From a virus: a stretch of 21,826 nucleotides of DNA. How positions within the stretch are numbered: position 1 is the first letter of the stretch; the number at the start of each line of letters is the position of its first letter. Positions 975 to 15,033 of the stretch are shown here, in pieces. The translations under genes were made by a program, and so were the position numbers. Under the pieces are notes generated by a model. It saw nothing but the letters and a program-made list of their open reading frames with translations. It was not told the origin of the DNA and made no database searches. The stretch lies in IMG/VR virus record IMGVR_UViG_3300032334_001972, positions 1 through 21,826 of that record. One strand, 5' to 3'.

Positions 975-2309
975 TCAAATTCCACAAATACCACCAATCA
1001 TTTCTGCATCCATCTCAAGCATCAAATAATGTGCTTCATCTAATGTATCTGCATGACCATAATTAATTAAATATTCCAAAACTAAATCATAAGCATCGTA
1101 AGATTCTACAGTAGTTGTTGTAGTTTTTGCCGCATCTTTAGCAGTCTTTTCTGCTTTTTTTCTATCTCTTTCTTGCTGTGCCTTAACATCAGCATCAACA
1201 GATTTGGAATCAATTTTTCCAGGTCCTTCTGATCCACCTTTAATTTCCGAATTGATGACTCCCATATCTATTCTTCTATTGCGAATTTCTGCAGCATCTT
1301 TTTCTATCTGACTTTTTCCAGTACCTTTTTGAGTTCCATCTGGATTTACATTTTTAGTAAGATTTGGATGAAGTTTTGCCCATTGCTCAAGACCATATTT
1401 TTTAGCAGCCTCTGGATCACTTTTTCTTAACTGGTCGTATTTTTTGTTAACTGAGGAATTAGGTGTTTTAGATACATCACCAGAAGGTCTACCACCAGAA
1501 CCACCAGAAGGTCTACCGCCAGAACCACCAGAAGGAGGTGGGAGAATAGGTGCCGGTGGTGGGGTAATTGAACTTGGGGTTGGTTTTGGACCTCCTTCAA
1601 CACCACCTGATCCACCTGGTTTTAAAGCATAAACAGCACCAGCACCAAGGCCTGCAGCAAGAGAAGCACCACCAGCAGTTTTTACTCCTTTAATTGCCTT
1701 TACAGTTCTTGCTTGTTTAATCAAATCGGCAGATTGTTTTGGTGATAAAGATCCTTGAGGAACTGTTATTCCAGATTTAGTTGCTTTATTTTTTGCCACT
1801 TTTTCTAGAGCAGCAGTAGTTCTTGATGGATTTGCACTTTTTGCAAATTGCTTACCAATTCTACTATCGACACCAGCGGTTGCTGCTTTTGTGACTCCAG
1901 TTTTTACTGCAGATTTGGTTGCTTTTGCAGCAGCACCAGCACCTTTAGCAAGTGCTTTAGCACCTCTAGCAAGAAGTCCTAAAAATCCACCAGCTTCAAG
2001 AATTGCTAGTTGCTCTTCTACAAAATCATTATGAATTAATTCTTCAGAAATAAAACTTACGTCAGTTGCCAAATACTTTTCTAAAATAACTGCTTCATCA
2101 GAACTTGCTAAAAATTTAATAAAGGTGTCTGCAGTATATCCTTCTGAAAACATTGACAATGCCAATGAAAGGATAATATCCTCTGCCAATTCTGCTGCTT
2201 CTTCATCATAATATTCAGAGTCTTCATTCAAAAAGTCTTGATCTTGGATATGAATTTGCTCATAAAGAGATCCAATATTGCTAATAAAATCTTGAGTAAT
2301 TTTTGACAT
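975..2309 (-). CDS. Low-complexity virion/internal head-type protein (444 aa) with acidic propeptide-like N-terminus
   Basis: No enzyme domain is seen. The order is: acidic helical region (1-105); an Ala/Lys/Gly-rich stretch (106-230) of short amphipathic helices; a Gly/Pro linker (about 231-280) with the octapeptide GGSGGRPS repeated twice; a charged region; and a C-terminal motif (about 405-440) of form Y-D-x-Y-D-L-V-L-x-Y-L, then H-A-D-T and M-x-x-M-x-x-E. I-L-E|A-G at 103-107 fits the T4 prohead protease rule (I/L-x-E before A/G), so residues 1-105 could be a removed propeptide. The same plan and C-terminal motif occur in the protein at 4008-5408, so the two are diverged paralogs. A late promoter precedes it and a terminator follows. 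The role (capsid-internal or ejected) is inferred. Confidence 0.8.
   Translation of the reverse strand: MSKITQDFISNIGSLYEQIHIQDQDFLNEDSEYYDEEAAELAEDIILSLALSMFSEGYTADTFIKFLASSDEAVILEKYLATDVSFISEELIHNDFVEEQLAILEAGGFLGLLARGAKALAKGAGAAAKATKSAVKTGVTKAATAGVDSRIGKQFAKSANPSRTTAALEKVAKNKATKSGITVPQGSLSPKQSADLIKQARTVKAIKGVKTAGGASLAAGLGAGAVYALKPGGSGGVEGGPKPTPSSITPPPAPILPPPSGGSGGRPSGGSGGRPSGDVSKTPNSSVNKKYDQLRKSDPEAAKKYGLEQWAKLHPNLTKNVNPDGTQKGTGKSQIEKDAAEIRNRRIDMGVINSEIKGGSEGPGKIDSKSVDADVKAQQERDRKKAEKTAKDAAKTTTTTVESYDAYDLVLEYLINYGHADTLDEAHYLMLEMDAEMIGGICGI
1480..1535. repeat. 24-bp coding tandem repeat (two full units plus a partial)
   Basis: Units at 1480-1503 and 1504-1527 differ at a single base and are followed by the first 8 bases of a third. 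They encode the Gly/Ser/Arg/Pro linker (GGSGGRPS) of the 444-aa protein. The period is a multiple of three, so length changes keep the frame. Confidence 0.75.
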
Positions 2310-2337: not shown

Positions 2338-2345
2338 TATTTATA
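2338..2345 (-). promoter_or_regulatory. Late promoter (TATAAATA) for the gene at 975-2309
   Basis: This is a perfect TATAAATA on the minus strand, 28 bases upstream of the ATG at 2309. It lies just after the stop codon of the preceding gene (2349). There is no terminator between them, so read-through plus a fresh late start is likely. Confidence 0.75.
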
Positions 2346-2348
2346 AAA

Positions 2349-3710
2349 TCATTTACCAGGACCAAACTTGACTCCAAGTGCTTTATTGCGAGCAATATCC
2401 GATTGTCTTGCCTTAGCAAGGTTCTTAGCAGCGTTTGCAGCATCAGATTTTTTATAAGCACCAGCAAATAAAGATCTACCAATTCTCTCCAATGGATTAG
2501 AAGAAGTTTTAGCAAGTGATTGAGCACTTGGACCTGCTTTATAAACTGCTTTGCCATCTTTATATGCAAGATGACCCGCAACAGATTGACCACCTCTTTG
2601 AACTACACCAGTTTTGGCAAGAGCAACTGTTTTTCTTTGTGCTCCAGTTCCTGTAGTCATTGTATTTTTCTTGGTGTCAAAACTGGTAGGACCACCAATA
2701 CCTTTAAGCGAACTTCCTGCTTGGCGTTGACGATTTGCAGTTGCCATTGCCTTTCTTTCTTTTGCATTAGCACCAGCAGCAACATCAAATGCCTTTTCTG
2801 CTGCTGCGCCGCCTGCCATAGCACCAGCAGTTCCTGTAGCAGCACTCAATAATCCACCACCACCAATTGCACCAGCAGTACCTCCAAGAAGTCCTCCAGC
2901 AGCAACTGTAGCACCCTTTGCTAGTGATCTTGCCCATCCAGATCCCTTTGCTCTCTCATCTGCAGTAGAAAGTGCCGTATCAACTGCAGTAGCAACAGGT
3001 CCTAACGCCTTTACAAATTTACCAAGTTTTCCAGAAACTTTTGGTACTTCTGGTGCTTTTCCTGCAGATGGTTTTGGAAGACTAGTTTGTCCTGCAGAAG
3101 GAAGTGCTAATTGCTTTTTCGATCCTCCTAATCCTTTGGGGGTAGGTACATTTAAATCAGTTTTAATTTGTTGGATAGGTTTTGTTGATAATCCAGTTGG
3201 AGGTTTGACTGTAAGATTACCACCTTTTGGACTAGGAGGTAATGCTTTTGTGGTTGGAGGATTAGAAGTCTGCCTAATTACCTGTTGACCAGGAGAAGTC
3301 TTAGGTGGTTCTGGGGGTGCTTCTGGGAGGCGTTTTGTTGCTTTTACTGGTTCAGATGATGTAAATGGAACTTGCCCTTTACCTGCCTTTGTAAAATTTT
3401 GTGCTCCTCCAGACTTTGTAAGCAAAGACGGTTGACGCATTTCGCCAGAACTTCTAACACTTGCTCCAGAAACTTTAGTTGTTTTTGGTTCAGGAATTTC
3501 TAATTGTCCTGAAGAAGTTTTAGGTGCTTCTGGTGCTCCTGGAGGTAATCTTCTAGATGCAGGTGTTGGTGTAGGATCTGCCGCAATTCCTCTATTTCCA
3601 ATATTTTTTCTAAAATCATATGCACTATTATTTCTTTTCAGTAATCTAAGTTGTTCTGCTTCTTCCTCATTCAAATATGATTCTTGCAAAAACTGACTAA
3701 AAGACTTCAT
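2349..3710 (-). CDS. Putative internal head/ejection protein with T4-like capsid-targeting N-terminus (453 aa)
   Basis: The N-terminus MKSFSQFLQE|S closely matches the capsid-targeting peptide of T4 internal proteins (MKTYQEFIAE|A), including the L-x-E cleavage rule of the gp21 protease. Residues 45-230 are Pro/Lys-rich and contain two copies of a module of form (R/K)RLP..(A/P)PE(A/P)PKTS.GQ, near residues 53-70 and 126-142. Residues 265-304 form an Ala/Gly-rich hydrophobic stretch with repeated GG and GxxxG spacing, which could insert in a membrane or pack as a glycine zipper. The C-terminus (about 405-453) is basic and helical. No catalytic motif is visible. A terminator and perfect late promoter sit upstream. 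Packaging and ejection are inferred from the leader and composition. Confidence 0.8.
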   Translation of the reverse strand: MKSFSQFLQESYLNEEEAEQLRLLKRNNSAYDFRKNIGNRGIAADPTPTPASRRLPPGAPEAPKTSSGQLEIPEPKTTKVSGASVRSSGEMRQPSLLTKSGGAQNFTKAGKGQVPFTSSEPVKATKRLPEAPPEPPKTSPGQQVIRQTSNPPTTKALPPSPKGGNLTVKPPTGLSTKPIQQIKTDLNVPTPKGLGGSKKQLALPSAGQTSLPKPSAGKAPEVPKVSGKLGKFVKALGPVATAVDTALSTADERAKGSGWARSLAKGATVAAGGLLGGTAGAIGGGGLLSAATGTAGAMAGGAAAEKAFDVAAGANAKERKAMATANRQRQAGSSLKGIGGPTSFDTKKNTMTTGTGAQRKTVALAKTGVVQRGGQSVAGHLAYKDGKAVYKAGPSAQSLAKTSSNPLERIGRSLFAGAYKKSDAANAAKNLAKARQSDIARNKALGVKFGPGK

Positions 3711-3731: not shown

Positions 3732-3739
3732 TATTTATA
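3732..3739 (-). promoter_or_regulatory. Late promoter (TATAAATA) fused to a terminator T-run
   Basis: This is a perfect TATAAATA on the minus strand, 21 bases upstream of the ATG at 3710. Its first T belongs to the T-run of the terminator just upstream (3739-3763). Confidence 0.8.
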
Positions 3740-3763
3740 AAAAAAGGAGGGTATTACCCCTCC
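3739..3763 (-). terminator. Rho-independent terminator after the 49-aa gene
   Basis: On the minus strand a GC-rich 6-bp stem (GGAGGG with CCCTCC, plus-strand reading) and a 6-base loop are followed by seven T. It lies 11 bases past the stop codon at 3775. Confidence 0.88.
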
Positions 3764-4007: not shown

Positions 4008-5408
4008 TCAACGATGCCAACTAGGTCTTTCACCATGATTGCGTTTTGGTCCAGTTGGTTTCCATCCTTTGGGTTTTTTAGGTCCTTCACCAGTAAAAGA
4101 TTTTTTTGATTCTTCTTCTTTTTTTTCTTCACCTTCAACAATACTCTCTCTCCACTCTTCACTCATATTTGCCATGATTTGGAGTGCTGCCTGTTCAGTA
4201 TCAGCATAACCTTCATCAATCAGGTGTCCTAATACAACATCAAATGGATCAAAACTTTGAGTTAATCCTTGACGTTGGCGTGATGCTGCTTGCATTGCAC
4301 GAAGTTCTGCATTTTGTGATGCCAAACTTGGTCTACCAGTAATTGGAGGTAATGCGGGTGGTCTCAGTGGTGGATTACCAGTTGTTACAGTTGGTGCTGG
4401 AGTTGGTTTTGCCGCAACAGTAGGTGCTGCTGGTCTTGTTGCAGTGGCCGCTGGTGTTGCAGTTGGTGCTGGAGTTGGTTTTGCTGCAACAGTAGGTGCT
4501 GCTGGTCTTGTTGCAGTTGGTGCTGGAGTTTTTACTTGTGACGATGGTGCTCCATATCTACCAAATTGACCTGTGCTTTGTCCAGTTGGTTTATTCAATG
4601 GTTCACCAGCACCAACTTTTCTAGAGATTTCAATTTCTTGACCAATTCTACGACCAGCTGCTCCAGCAGCTCCAGCAACTGCAGATCCTGCTCTTTGAGC
4701 GGCACCAGCAACTGCTTGACCTGCTCTTTGAGTAGCACCAACTGCAGCTTGTCCAGCAGCGGTAGCACCACGAACTGCTCCCTGAGCAGCTCCTTGAACT
4801 GCTCGTCCAGCAGTATTTAAAGCACTTTGACCAGCAGAAACTGCTCTTTGGGCGGTTCCTTTAACTGCTTGAGCAACTGGAGTGACTGCTCTCTGAACTG
4901 CTCCTCCTGCTCTTTGAGCAGCACCTGCAACTGTTTGACCTGCTCTTTGAGCAGCACCAGCAACAGCAGTTCCTGCTCTTTTAACAGCGCCAACTGCAGT
5001 CTGACCCGCTCTTACAGCACCTCCTACAGCACGATCTGCGCCACTAGCAACACTTCTTACACCACCAGCAACAGCAGATCCTGCTCTTTTAACTCCACCG
5101 ATTGCAGTGTTAGCAAGATTTTGGAAGAAACCTGCTTCCATCAAATATTGCTCGTCAAGAACGCCAGTTTCGAAAAGAATCGAATCAATATCTTCTACTG
5201 CCATTTCTGACATATAAACTTCAGCAGTATTATATCCTGGAACAAATCCATTATATACAAGATAATCTGCAACAGTTTGATATGCTTCAGAAATAAATTC
5301 TTCTGTTAGATATGATTCCCAGAGATAATCTTCATTAACTTGTGGAGCATAAACTGCATTATATGCTTCCATCAAATCAACTACCTGATGTGATGTAATT
5401 CTTTCCAT
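4008..5408 (-). CDS. Ala-rich virion/internal head-type protein (466 aa), paralog of the 444-aa protein
   Basis: The order is: acidic N-terminal segment (1-91); a long Ala/Gly/Arg stretch (about 100-255) built from repeats like AGAAQRAGQTVAGAAQRAG; a Pro/Thr/Ala linker (about 285-360) with PTVAAKPTPAPT repeats; a conserved C-terminal motif (about 395-430) of F-D-x-F-D-V-V-L, G-Y-A-D-T, M-x-x-M-S-E-E-W; and a basic tail. Candidate gp21-type cleavage sites are L-M-E|A (12-15), I-S-E|A (39-42) and L-M-E|A-G (89-93), so the acidic segment may be removed during head maturation. The basic repeat region could then bind packaged DNA. It shares its plan with the 975-2309 protein. No enzyme signature is seen. 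It lies between a terminator/late-promoter module and another terminator. Confidence 0.8.
   Translation of the reverse strand: MERITSHQVVDLMEAYNAVYAPQVNEDYLWESYLTEEFISEAYQTVADYLVYNGFVPGYNTAEVYMSEMAVEDIDSILFETGVLDEQYLMEAGFFQNLANTAIGGVKRAGSAVAGGVRSVASGADRAVGGAVRAGQTAVGAVKRAGTAVAGAAQRAGQTVAGAAQRAGGAVQRAVTPVAQAVKGTAQRAVSAGQSALNTAGRAVQGAAQGAVRGATAAGQAAVGATQRAGQAVAGAAQRAGSAVAGAAGAAGRRIGQEIEISRKVGAGEPLNKPTGQSTGQFGRYGAPSSQVKTPAPTATRPAAPTVAAKPTPAPTATPAATATRPAAPTVAAKPTPAPTVTTGNPPLRPPALPPITGRPSLASQNAELRAMQAASRQRQGLTQSFDPFDVVLGHLIDEGYADTEQAALQIMANMSEEWRESIVEGEEKKEEESKKSFTGEGPKKPKGWKPTGPKRNHGERPSWHR
4388..4530. repeat. Coding direct repeats in the Pro/Thr/Ala linker
   Basis: Two 58-base copies (4388-4445 and 4460-4517) differ at one visible base and have a 72-base period. 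A third partial copy starts at 4514. They encode the PTVAAKPTPAPT-type linker. The periods (72 and 54) keep the reading frame, which suggests growth by in-frame recombination. Confidence 0.7.
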
Positions 5409-5435: not shown

Positions 5436-5443
5436 TATTTATA
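5436..5443 (-). promoter_or_regulatory. Late promoter (TATAAATA) fused to a terminator T-run
   Basis: This is a perfect TATAAATA on the minus strand, 27 bases upstream of the ATG at 5408. It starts inside the T-run of the terminator at 5443-5467. Confidence 0.8.
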
Positions 5444-11088: not shown

Positions 11089-11613
11089 TTATGCAATAGT
11101 TGGATTTGCATCATAAATTGGAAGACTTCCAGTAGTAATACCAGACATTGCAACAAGAACTTCCGATTTAACTCTCAAAGTTCCATTACTGTCATTGTAT
11201 GTAGTAACACCAACCCAACCCTGATGGGTCAATGCATATGAAGTTCCTTGAGCATTAGCAATTCCAGCATCAGCAACACCATAAATATGTGGTTCGTAAT
11301 TAGTGTTGATTTCACTCCAACGACCATCACGAACAGTGTATTTTGGAAGTTCACTAATATAATATGTTGCCGCAGAAACTGCCCCACCACTAAGTCCCGT
11401 TGTAGAAGCAATAGAAAGTGTCGTCGTGCTTGCAATACCCACAATGACAGCATTTCCAATTTCACCCAATGTGCCAAAACGAATTACATCTCCAGTAGCA
11501 GCAGCTCCAACTTGCCCAAAGCTAGTTCCACTACCAGTTACTACGAGAGTAGTATAATTTAAAGTTACTGTTCCACCTGAAAATTTGTTATCATTATTTC
11601 CCCAGAGTGCCAT
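11089..11613 (-). CDS. Probable virion structural protein (174 aa, beta-rich)
   Basis: The protein starts MALWGNNDNKFSGGTV and is dominated by short Thr/Ser/Gly/Val strands, typical of phage head or tail decoration folds. Segments such as VVTGSGTSFGQ, GDVIRFG and GWVGVTTY match, from memory, a structural protein common in cyanomyoviruses. No enzymatic motif is present. It is the first gene after a terminator/late-promoter module (11645-11681), which fits late expression. The exact place in the virion cannot be told from sequence. Confidence 0.82.
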   Translation of the reverse strand: MALWGNNDNKFSGGTVTLNYTTLVVTGSGTSFGQVGAAATGDVIRFGTLGEIGNAVIVGIASTTTLSIASTTGLSGGAVSAATYYISELPKYTVRDGRWSEINTNYEPHIYGVADAGIANAQGTSYALTHQGWVGVTTYNDSNGTLRVKSEVLVAMSGITTGSLPIYDANPTIA

Positions 11614-11644: not shown

Positions 11645-11652
11645 TATTTATA
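11645..11652 (-). promoter_or_regulatory. Late promoter (TATAAATA) fused to a terminator T-run
   Basis: This is a perfect TATAAATA on the minus strand, 31 bases upstream of the ATG at 11613, starting in the T-run of the terminator at 11652-11681. Confidence 0.8.
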
Positions 11653-13698: not shown

Positions 13699-15033
13699 CT
13701 ACTTTTTTTTCCTATTCTTATTTATGAAATTCTTTATATGAGATATTCCCATCACTTTCATAACATTTTTTCTATACCCATCTGTACCAACTAACGTATT
13801 TGGTTTATTCGGTAGTCTCATAATTCTGGACATACTTTTTTCATTATAAGATTCTGAAACGTCCTTTATCCAAGATTTAAACATCATTCCATTTTCAGTC
13901 ACACAAATTAAATAGTTTGTTCCCCTACGAATAATTTTACCAACCATTCCAGTATTAATATTTTCAACTATTTCTCCAATATTAAATATATTTTTTTTGA
14001 TATAGTTTTCTCTCAAAGATTGAACATCAAACTTTGGGGCAATCTCCCAAATATTGTACCCTTCCTGTTGTATATCCAAAATTTCCATTCCTTGACGTAC
14101 CATATCAAATAATTGAATTACTTCTTTATTTGACATTTCTGTAGGAAGTCCTTGACGGAAAGTAATAAGATCACCTTCTGCTGCTGCCAATCTTAGTCTT
14201 GATGCAGATATTGCTTCAAGACCATCTCCATCAGGATCTCTTTCTCCAGCAGAAATAACTTGAATATTATCAAATTGGTATAATTGTCCATTATAGTTAT
14301 TGGAAATTTTTTCAAATTCCTTAACTCTATCTGAACCAGAAACAATTATAATATCTGCATATCCATCATTGTATGCCTTTTTCAATACATCAAAAATAGT
14401 AATAAAATTTGGATCATTTACTATTCTTTCACTATGATCTGGAAAAATTTTTCTCATTATTGAGATTTTTGTGTCAGGATCTAATGGATTTTTCTTTTTA
14501 TCTTGACTACGCGAAGGAACAATTATGTAATCTCCACCACTTTCCATTGCGGTATCATATGCAACATCCATCAACTGTTGATGCCCAATAGTAGGAGGAT
14601 TAAAACGCCCAAAAACAACCACCAAAGTTCCTTTGGTTTTTTCAACTGGTTGAGGAACAAATTCTGGAGTTTGAATCTGATTTTCTACATTTGGATCAAC
14701 TACTGTCTGATCTAGTGGCACTTGATCAATTGCTACCTGGTCCATAGGTACTTGATCTGTAGGAGGTGCGATGGGTTGTTGTGCAGGTACTAGTTGTGGA
14801 TCCACATAACCTTTAGAAGCAATTTCCTTTTCTCTTGGAGTTTGTTTTGGATCCTTCCCAGGAATTCGCTGCCTCTTATTATAAAATTGTAGTTTTCCGT
14901 TCACGGTTTTTGCTTCAAATTCGCCGGTAGCCCTATTATACCATCCCCCATGCCCATCTGGGGCAAGTGCCAAGCGTTTTGCTTGATCGGATGCGGCAGT
15001 TGCTTCCTTTAGAAATGTAAAATAATTTTTCAT
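13699..15033 (-). CDS. Cytidylyltransferase-fold (NMNAT-like) protein with capsid-targeting-like N-terminus (444 aa)
   Basis: Residues 1-11 (MKNYFTFLKE|A) match the T4 internal-protein targeting peptide and L-x-E cleavage rule. Residues 22-60 are a small module (GGWYNRATGEFEAKT) that I associate with cyanophage virion proteins. Residues 93-112 contain a DQVPx-type pentapeptide repeat in a Pro-rich linker. Residues 136-295 are a nucleotidyltransferase domain with GRFNPPTIGH (142-151, the T/HxGH motif) and ISASRLR (275-281, the ISxSxxR-like motif). A C-terminal part near 345-390 looks SH3/KOW-like, and the tail is basic. The family joins nucleotides to phosphorylated substrates (NMN, phosphopantetheine, choline phosphate); the substrate here is unknown. 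The start codon overlaps the upstream stop (TAATG). The likely-active domain behind a head-targeting leader is unusual. Confidence 0.85.
   Translation of the reverse strand: MKNYFTFLKEATAASDQAKRLALAPDGHGGWYNRATGEFEAKTVNGKLQFYNKRQRIPGKDPKQTPREKEIASKGYVDPQLVPAQQPIAPPTDQVPMDQVAIDQVPLDQTVVDPNVENQIQTPEFVPQPVEKTKGTLVVVFGRFNPPTIGHQQLMDVAYDTAMESGGDYIIVPSRSQDKKKNPLDPDTKISIMRKIFPDHSERIVNDPNFITIFDVLKKAYNDGYADIIIVSGSDRVKEFEKISNNYNGQLYQFDNIQVISAGERDPDGDGLEAISASRLRLAAAEGDLITFRQGLPTEMSNKEVIQLFDMVRQGMEILDIQQEGYNIWEIAPKFDVQSLRENYIKKNIFNIGEIVENINTGMVGKIIRRGTNYLICVTENGMMFKSWIKDVSESYNEKSMSRIMRLPNKPNTLVGTDGYRKNVMKVMGISHIKNFINKNRKKK
13719..13726 (-). promoter_or_regulatory. Late promoter (CATAAATA) for the 584-aa gene
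   Basis: CATAAATA on the minus strand is one base from consensus. It lies 36 bases before the ATG at 13682, inside the last codons of the 444-aa gene. Confidence 0.55.

Follow-up and report, generated by a model that had tools for sequence, protein, structure and literature searches.

A putative T4-like capsid-targeting leader on P1, a candidate internal head protein of a freshwater cyanophage

P1, a 453-residue protein encoded in a 21,826-nucleotide stretch of viral DNA (IMG/VR record IMGVR_UViG_3300032334_001972; hereafter the window), is likely to be an internal head protein of the T4 type from a freshwater T4-like cyanophage (Kyanoviridae), made late, docked through a capsid-targeting sequence (CTS), cleaved by a gp21-type protease and released with the DNA. 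We infer its packaging, cleavage, virion location and delivery as follows. P1 would be expressed late, under a late promoter of its own; its ten N-terminal residues would dock it in the prohead core via F4 and F7; a gp21-type prohead protease would remove the leader after L-x-E10, and perhaps cleave after E15 too; and the basic body would stay in the head beside the DNA and exit with it at infection. Judged from its sequence, P1 probably travels in the virus head and is freed into the cell at infection. The mechanism is of a known kind, that of the CTS-directed internal proteins of T4.

Papers on cyanophages list metabolic and regulatory enzymes in virions and cannot separate cargo from contamination. 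Because the leader of P1 fits the T4 rules for targeting and cleavage and also marks virion enzymes, it provides a sequence-based prediction that such enzymes are head cargo and are probably injected. It further singles out uncharacterized proteins, the P1 family among them, as possible effectors that act early for viruses abundant in aquatic habitats. Modular head loading by means of this leader is well supported by sequence and by the published proteomes of relatives. The link between CTSs and cyanophages seems unreported, as the papers using the term ‘capsid targeting sequence’ within our incomplete coverage of the literature present no cyanophage cases, and the P1 family, its cassette and this explanation for enzymes in cyanophage virions appear to be new in the literature searched.

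The leader of P1

The P1 open reading frame is real and lies on the minus strand, which the sequence-only reading had not stated (Table 1). Ten N-terminal residues are enough to package T4 IPIII; within this CTS, targeting depends on residues 4 and 7 and processing on residues 8 and 10, and gp21 cleaves after L/I-x-E (PMC9026906). In our motif scan, the leaders of T4 IPII and IPIII read MKTYQEFIAE/A (the slash marks the cleavage position throughout). The P1 leader, MKSFSQFLQE/S, keeps all four T4-critical positions, with aromatic residues at positions 4 and 7 (F4 and F7) and with L8 and E10 forming the L/I-x-E site of gp21. We compared the leaders of 34 P1-family members, encoded by 28 distinct DNA sequences with varying synonymous codons: M1, K2 and E10 are invariant, F4 is present in 31/34 (two others have Y), F7 in 33/34 and L8 in 31/34 (I or V in the remaining three), and position 9 is unconstrained, with eight different residues. 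Across the family, the linker that follows the leader defies alignment; in the most distant members it is 8–16% identical, compared with 40–80% for the leader. The C-terminal domain is conserved, being among the most conserved parts. The leader of a distant homologue in DSL-LC02, MKTYREFVAE/A, is almost the T4 sequence. The best reading of the P1 leader would be a CTS of the T4 type.

P1 shares with T4 IPI, IPII and IPIII a ten-residue N-terminal leader with F/Y4, F7, L/I8 and E10, an L/I-x-E cleavage site and a basic body and, together with the other carriers described below, the presence of diverse bodies behind one leader in phages that have a gp21 protease. It differs from them in its unrelated body sequence, its length (453 aa, against 95–193 aa), its disordered linker of Pro-rich repeats, its glycine zipper, its late-promoter cassette behind nrdB and its cyanobacterial host. 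The size of P1, larger than the approximately 8–20 kDa of the T4 proteins, counts against the internal-head-protein reading, as does the fact that the leader motif is not perfectly predictive of virion presence; T4 61.1 (54 aa), which also carries it, is an exception to the prediction.

Table 1. Features of P1, its neighbours and the second leader carrier, with positions in the window
Feature	Position	Strand	Basis or remark
P1, 453-aa CTS-bearing protein, candidate internal head protein	2349..3710	-	Open reading frame and homologues
P1 leader MKSFSQFLQE, capsid-targeting-like; predicted cleavage after E10	3681..3710	-	T4 rules (PMC9026906)
Second L-x-E site in P1, YLNE/E (E15)	ends at codon 3666-3668	-	Sequence
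Pro-rich linker, repeat copy 1 (P1 residues 20-79)	3474..3653	-	
Pro-rich linker, repeat copy 2 (P1 residues 93-155)	3246..3434	-	
Gly/Ala glycine-zipper segment, 39 uncharged residues (P1 residues 266-304)	2799..2915	-	Predicted helical hairpin
P1 conserved C-terminal domain (residues 316-453), small beta domain and basic helix	2352..2765	-	Matches no known fold
Late promoter of P1, TATAAATA, T4 type	3732..3739	-	Late-promoter sequence per PMC3037559
P2, acidic N-terminal ~105 aa, ILE/A site, Gly/Ala-rich basic body	975..2309	-	Candidate co-packaged protein
P2's own late promoter	2338-2345	-	Octamer match
P3, acidic N-terminal ~95 aa, LME/A site, then Ala/Gly-rich 11-mer-like basic repeats	4008..5408	-	Candidate co-packaged protein
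P3's own late promoter	5436-5443	-	Octamer match
Cytidyltransferase/NMNAT-like protein, 444 aa, leader MKNYFTFLKE/A (codons 15004-15033)	13699..15033	-	Orthologues MS-detected in virions

The leader in other genomes and in virions

A strict codon-level form of the motif gave 27 matches in the 2.11 Mb of 11 complete T4-like genomes and none when reversed; in 487 kb of P-SSP7, phiKZ and Ma-LMM01 it gave none. A homologue of gp21 (Peptidase_S77) is present in all 11 T4-like genomes scanned, namely S-SRM01, which is the closest complete relative, and ten others (the 21.8 kb window has no head module), and no gp21-type protease was recognised in P-SSP7, phiKZ or Ma-LMM01. At the start codons of six genomes we found 17 strict matches, compared with about 0.5 expected from permuted motifs (2–4 per genome against 0.04–0.14). 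The carriers are IPII and IPIII in T4 and, in the cyanophages, NMNAT/cytidyltransferase, SAM hydrolase, kinases, P1 and small proteins. Within the window itself, P1 and the 444-aa cytidyltransferase are unrelated outside the leader (BLASTP E 0.28), in agreement with the earlier claim that two unrelated bodies stand behind one leader.

MS-detected virion proteins of S-CREM2 include the SAM hydrolase, APH kinase, cytidylyltransferase, ORF13 and ORF136 (PMC10665884). All three strict carriers of this phage (cytidylyltransferase, APH/ChoK-like kinase and SAM hydrolase) are virion proteins (P 0.013) and account for three of six proteins classed in the original paper as non-structural yet virion-associated (PMC10665884); ORF13 and ORF136, also MS-detected, have close variants of the leader. 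NMNAT has been detected in virions of S-SCSM1 (PMC9602691) and cytidyltransferase in those of S-SM1 (PMC3037559) and S-SZBM1 (PMC9146016), the leader in S-SZBM1 being one residue shorter (MRFRQFIIE/A); a kinase in S-CRM01 virions is mentioned as a citation in PMC10665884. When the strict carriers are pooled, 5/8 are in virion proteomes compared with 1.5 expected (P ~0.007, with an approximate gene total for S-SM1), a modest enrichment in which the carriers counted include orthologues of one gene. It should also be noted that the MS authors caution that abundant soluble proteins may contaminate CsCl-purified virions. The sequence-only reading had proposed a modular system for loading different cargos into the head, to be checked by enrichment of the motif among virion proteins; this enrichment is observed, and the modular reading is supported by it and by the presence of the CTS-like leader on several unrelated bodies.

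The cyanomyovirus virion enzymes (NMNAT/cytidyltransferase T4-GC190, SAM hydrolase and APH/ChoK-like kinase) have the CTS-like leader in common with P1 but, unlike P1, they are recognisable enzymes that are MS-detected in the purified virions of relatives, and several of them contain a DGHGGWY module that P1 lacks. This module (QAKxLxLxxDGHGGWYDxxTGEFxAKTxxGxLxFY) lies directly behind the leader of the window cytidyltransferase (residues ~17–55). It is common to the S-CREM2 APH kinase (E 2e-19) and Cas9-like protein (1e-9) (L097:7704-12846), occurs in the S-CRM01 PKN8 kinase (4e-6) as well, and is a putative second shared cargo module. In the Cas9-like virion protein of S-CREM2 (L097:7704-10313), a CTS core, FASFMAE/A, is displaced by an 18-residue N-terminal extension.

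A leader carrier of about 105 aa (MKSFNQFLSESV-like) is located between gp16 and gp17 and is conserved across five loci (L094:10312-10629, L095:6216-6536, L064:16583-16891, L065:38340-38660 and L067:45024-45344). Neither the S-SCSM1 nor the S-SZBM1 virion proteome shows it, and it is possibly a degraded prohead core protein. The acetyltransferase-like g185 of S-CRM01 (L093:44046-44441), with the strict leader MKTFDEFLTE/G and a late promoter, is predicted to be head cargo.

The body of P1 and its possible roles

Pro-rich repeats, a hydrophobic Gly/Ala stretch and a basic tail had been described from the sequence, and repeat alignment, shuffles and charge bear out all three. The Pro-rich repeats form two copies, each of about 60–65 aa, that are 38% identical to each other (58% in the S-SRM01 homologue). 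The 39-residue uncharged run is matched by 20/5000 shuffles, and its glycines G272, G276, G280 and G284, with a spacing of four, are conserved in 29–31 of 31 members. The net charge of the whole protein is +41 and peaks at the C-terminus, giving P1 the basic body of T4-type CTS proteins. No family was found for P1 in Pfam or PHROGs, nor any relative among PDB sequences. The AlphaFold model of full-length P1 is mostly of low confidence (mean pLDDT 54) and that of the C-terminal 218 residues is better (pLDDT 70); both contain a helical hairpin with a glycine zipper, a small beta domain and a basic helix at the C-terminus, and the full-length model also shows a helical leader (residues 4–26) and a long disordered linker. 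A structure search with both models gave no significant match outside S-SRM01.

Our best guess for the task of P1 after delivery is that it binds the DNA as it enters and/or takes part in an entry step at the inner membrane; a DNA-associated role is as compatible with the charge of P1 as membrane action is. A narrower form of the favoured explanation, in which P1 acts as an ejection protein, its glycine-zipper hairpin inserting into the inner membrane of the cyanobacterium and aiding DNA passage, seems to us unlikely. The conserved GxxxGxxxGxxxG spacing and the helical hairpin of the model speak for it, and so, weakly, does the resemblance of this hairpin to the membrane-embedded glycine-zipper hairpin of SlyB. 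SlyB scored best among several weak PDB matches, with Z 5.4, rmsd 5.5 and 21% identity over 66 residues, but this is below the level called meaningful. Moreover, no transmembrane segment is predicted in P1: the best 19-residue Kyte–Doolittle mean, 1.21, is under the transmembrane threshold and the octanol-scale energy is positive (+4.9 kcal/mol). Also in favour of it, one distant member of the family matches tape-measure and tail-lysin profiles through its Gly/Ala segment, but this is a low-complexity region that may yield spurious profile matches. The suggestion in the sequence-only reading that this stretch would suit membrane passage is thus unsupported by hydropathy and octanol energy, the SlyB match being weak, and the membrane reading is speculative. 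Where individual distant members hit tape-measure or tail-lysin profiles in PHROGs, the alignment passes through the Gly/Ala segment, and we did not read these matches as a sign of homology.

P1 could also be a component of the prohead core or of its assembly, targeted by its leader but mostly degraded by the protease and lost rather than delivered to the host, which we regard as improbable. The T4 core proteins gp22, gp67 and gp68 are indeed gp21 substrates, the small CTS carriers of the gp16–gp17 module are missing from two virion proteomes, and P1 contains four L/I-x-E sites. However, all four are located within its first 130 residues, and the conserved basic body (131–453) has none, unlike P2 and P3. 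Furthermore, the high conservation of the C-terminal domain suggests a function after maturation. Finally, we regard it as very improbable that the leader only looks like a CTS and instead serves, as a short amphipathic helix at the N-terminus, in membrane binding, in protein interaction or as the context of translation start. Its predicted helicity and the limited information of a ten-residue motif speak for this, but the phages in which we found the motif all have a gp21-type protease, position 9 is free with E fixed at position 10 as a cleavage site requires, and the motif labels enzymes found in virions.

Genomic setting and late promoter

The window, a piece of the genome of a freshwater T4-like cyanomyovirus, has the gene order of Synechococcus phage S-SRM01: DNA polymerase, uvsX, gp41, mazG, cytidyltransferase, primase, nrdA, nrdB and three unknown genes. 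We gathered 44 P1-related loci from IMG/VR and three phage genomes. Homologues were found only in S-SRM01 (QPX48235, 70% identical), DSL-LC02, DSL-LC03 and metagenomic contigs; the distant homologues of DSL-LC03 and DSL-LC02 are at another genome location and retain only the C-terminal domain and the leader. The same-strand order nrdB–P3–P1–P2 is present in about 20 loci with sufficient flank.

The sequence TATAAAT has been used as the T4 late promoter sequence for cyanophages (PMC3037559). Upstream of P1, TATAAATA begins 29 bp from the ATG and merges with the T-run of the terminator-like hairpin before it (~3746–3763). The exact octamer is kept in 30/34 P1-family members, 25–33 bp from the start codon; since its four occurrences in the window compared with 1.9 expected are no significant enrichment, its weight comes only from this fixed position in the homologues. 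We rejected the idea that a late promoter generally marks CTS genes, as most of those outside the P1 family have no exact octamer close to their start. The window has only one other exact TATAAATA (11645–11652), just upstream of a 174-aa open reading frame (11089–11613); by a purely positional argument, this frame corresponds to S-SZBM1_136, which occupies the equivalent position in its genome and has been detected by MS as a structural protein of the virion.

The neighbouring proteins P2 and P3

The acidic-to-basic junctions of P2 and P3 are marked in the window by L/M-x-E/A sites. For the long propeptides of the giant-phage ejection proteins gp50, gp53 and gp54 of SPN3US, a role in directing cargo to the prohead has been proposed, and P2 and P3 resemble these proteins in the 95–105-residue, strongly acidic N-terminal regions that end at these sites, whereas the proteases and motifs of giant phages differ and P1 itself has a short T4-like leader. 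By this parallel P2 and P3 may be further head proteins with long propeptides, a weaker inference because the junction site is not strictly conserved. At the same location in P-SSM2, a protein with the leader MKSLSQFIIE/T is followed by a P2 relative, and in DSL-LC03 a relative of P2/P3 adjoins a CTS carrier (MKTYTEFISE/C).

A broader view, possible but rather doubtful, is that T4-like cyanophages run a general head-loading programme, in which one CTS leader would bring a varying cargo into the cyanobacterium along with the DNA. This cargo would include SAM hydrolase, kinases, an NAD-synthesis-like enzyme, a Cas9-like nuclease and P3–P1–P2. P1, P2 and P3 would then be a dedicated ejection apparatus undescribed in T4, made of basic proteins that are bound to DNA and whose glycine-zipper or amphipathic segments act on membranes. 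The 11-residue Ala/Gly/Gln/Arg repeats of P3 (AVAGAAQRAGQ-like) are such as are seen in amphipathic lipid- or DNA-binding proteins.
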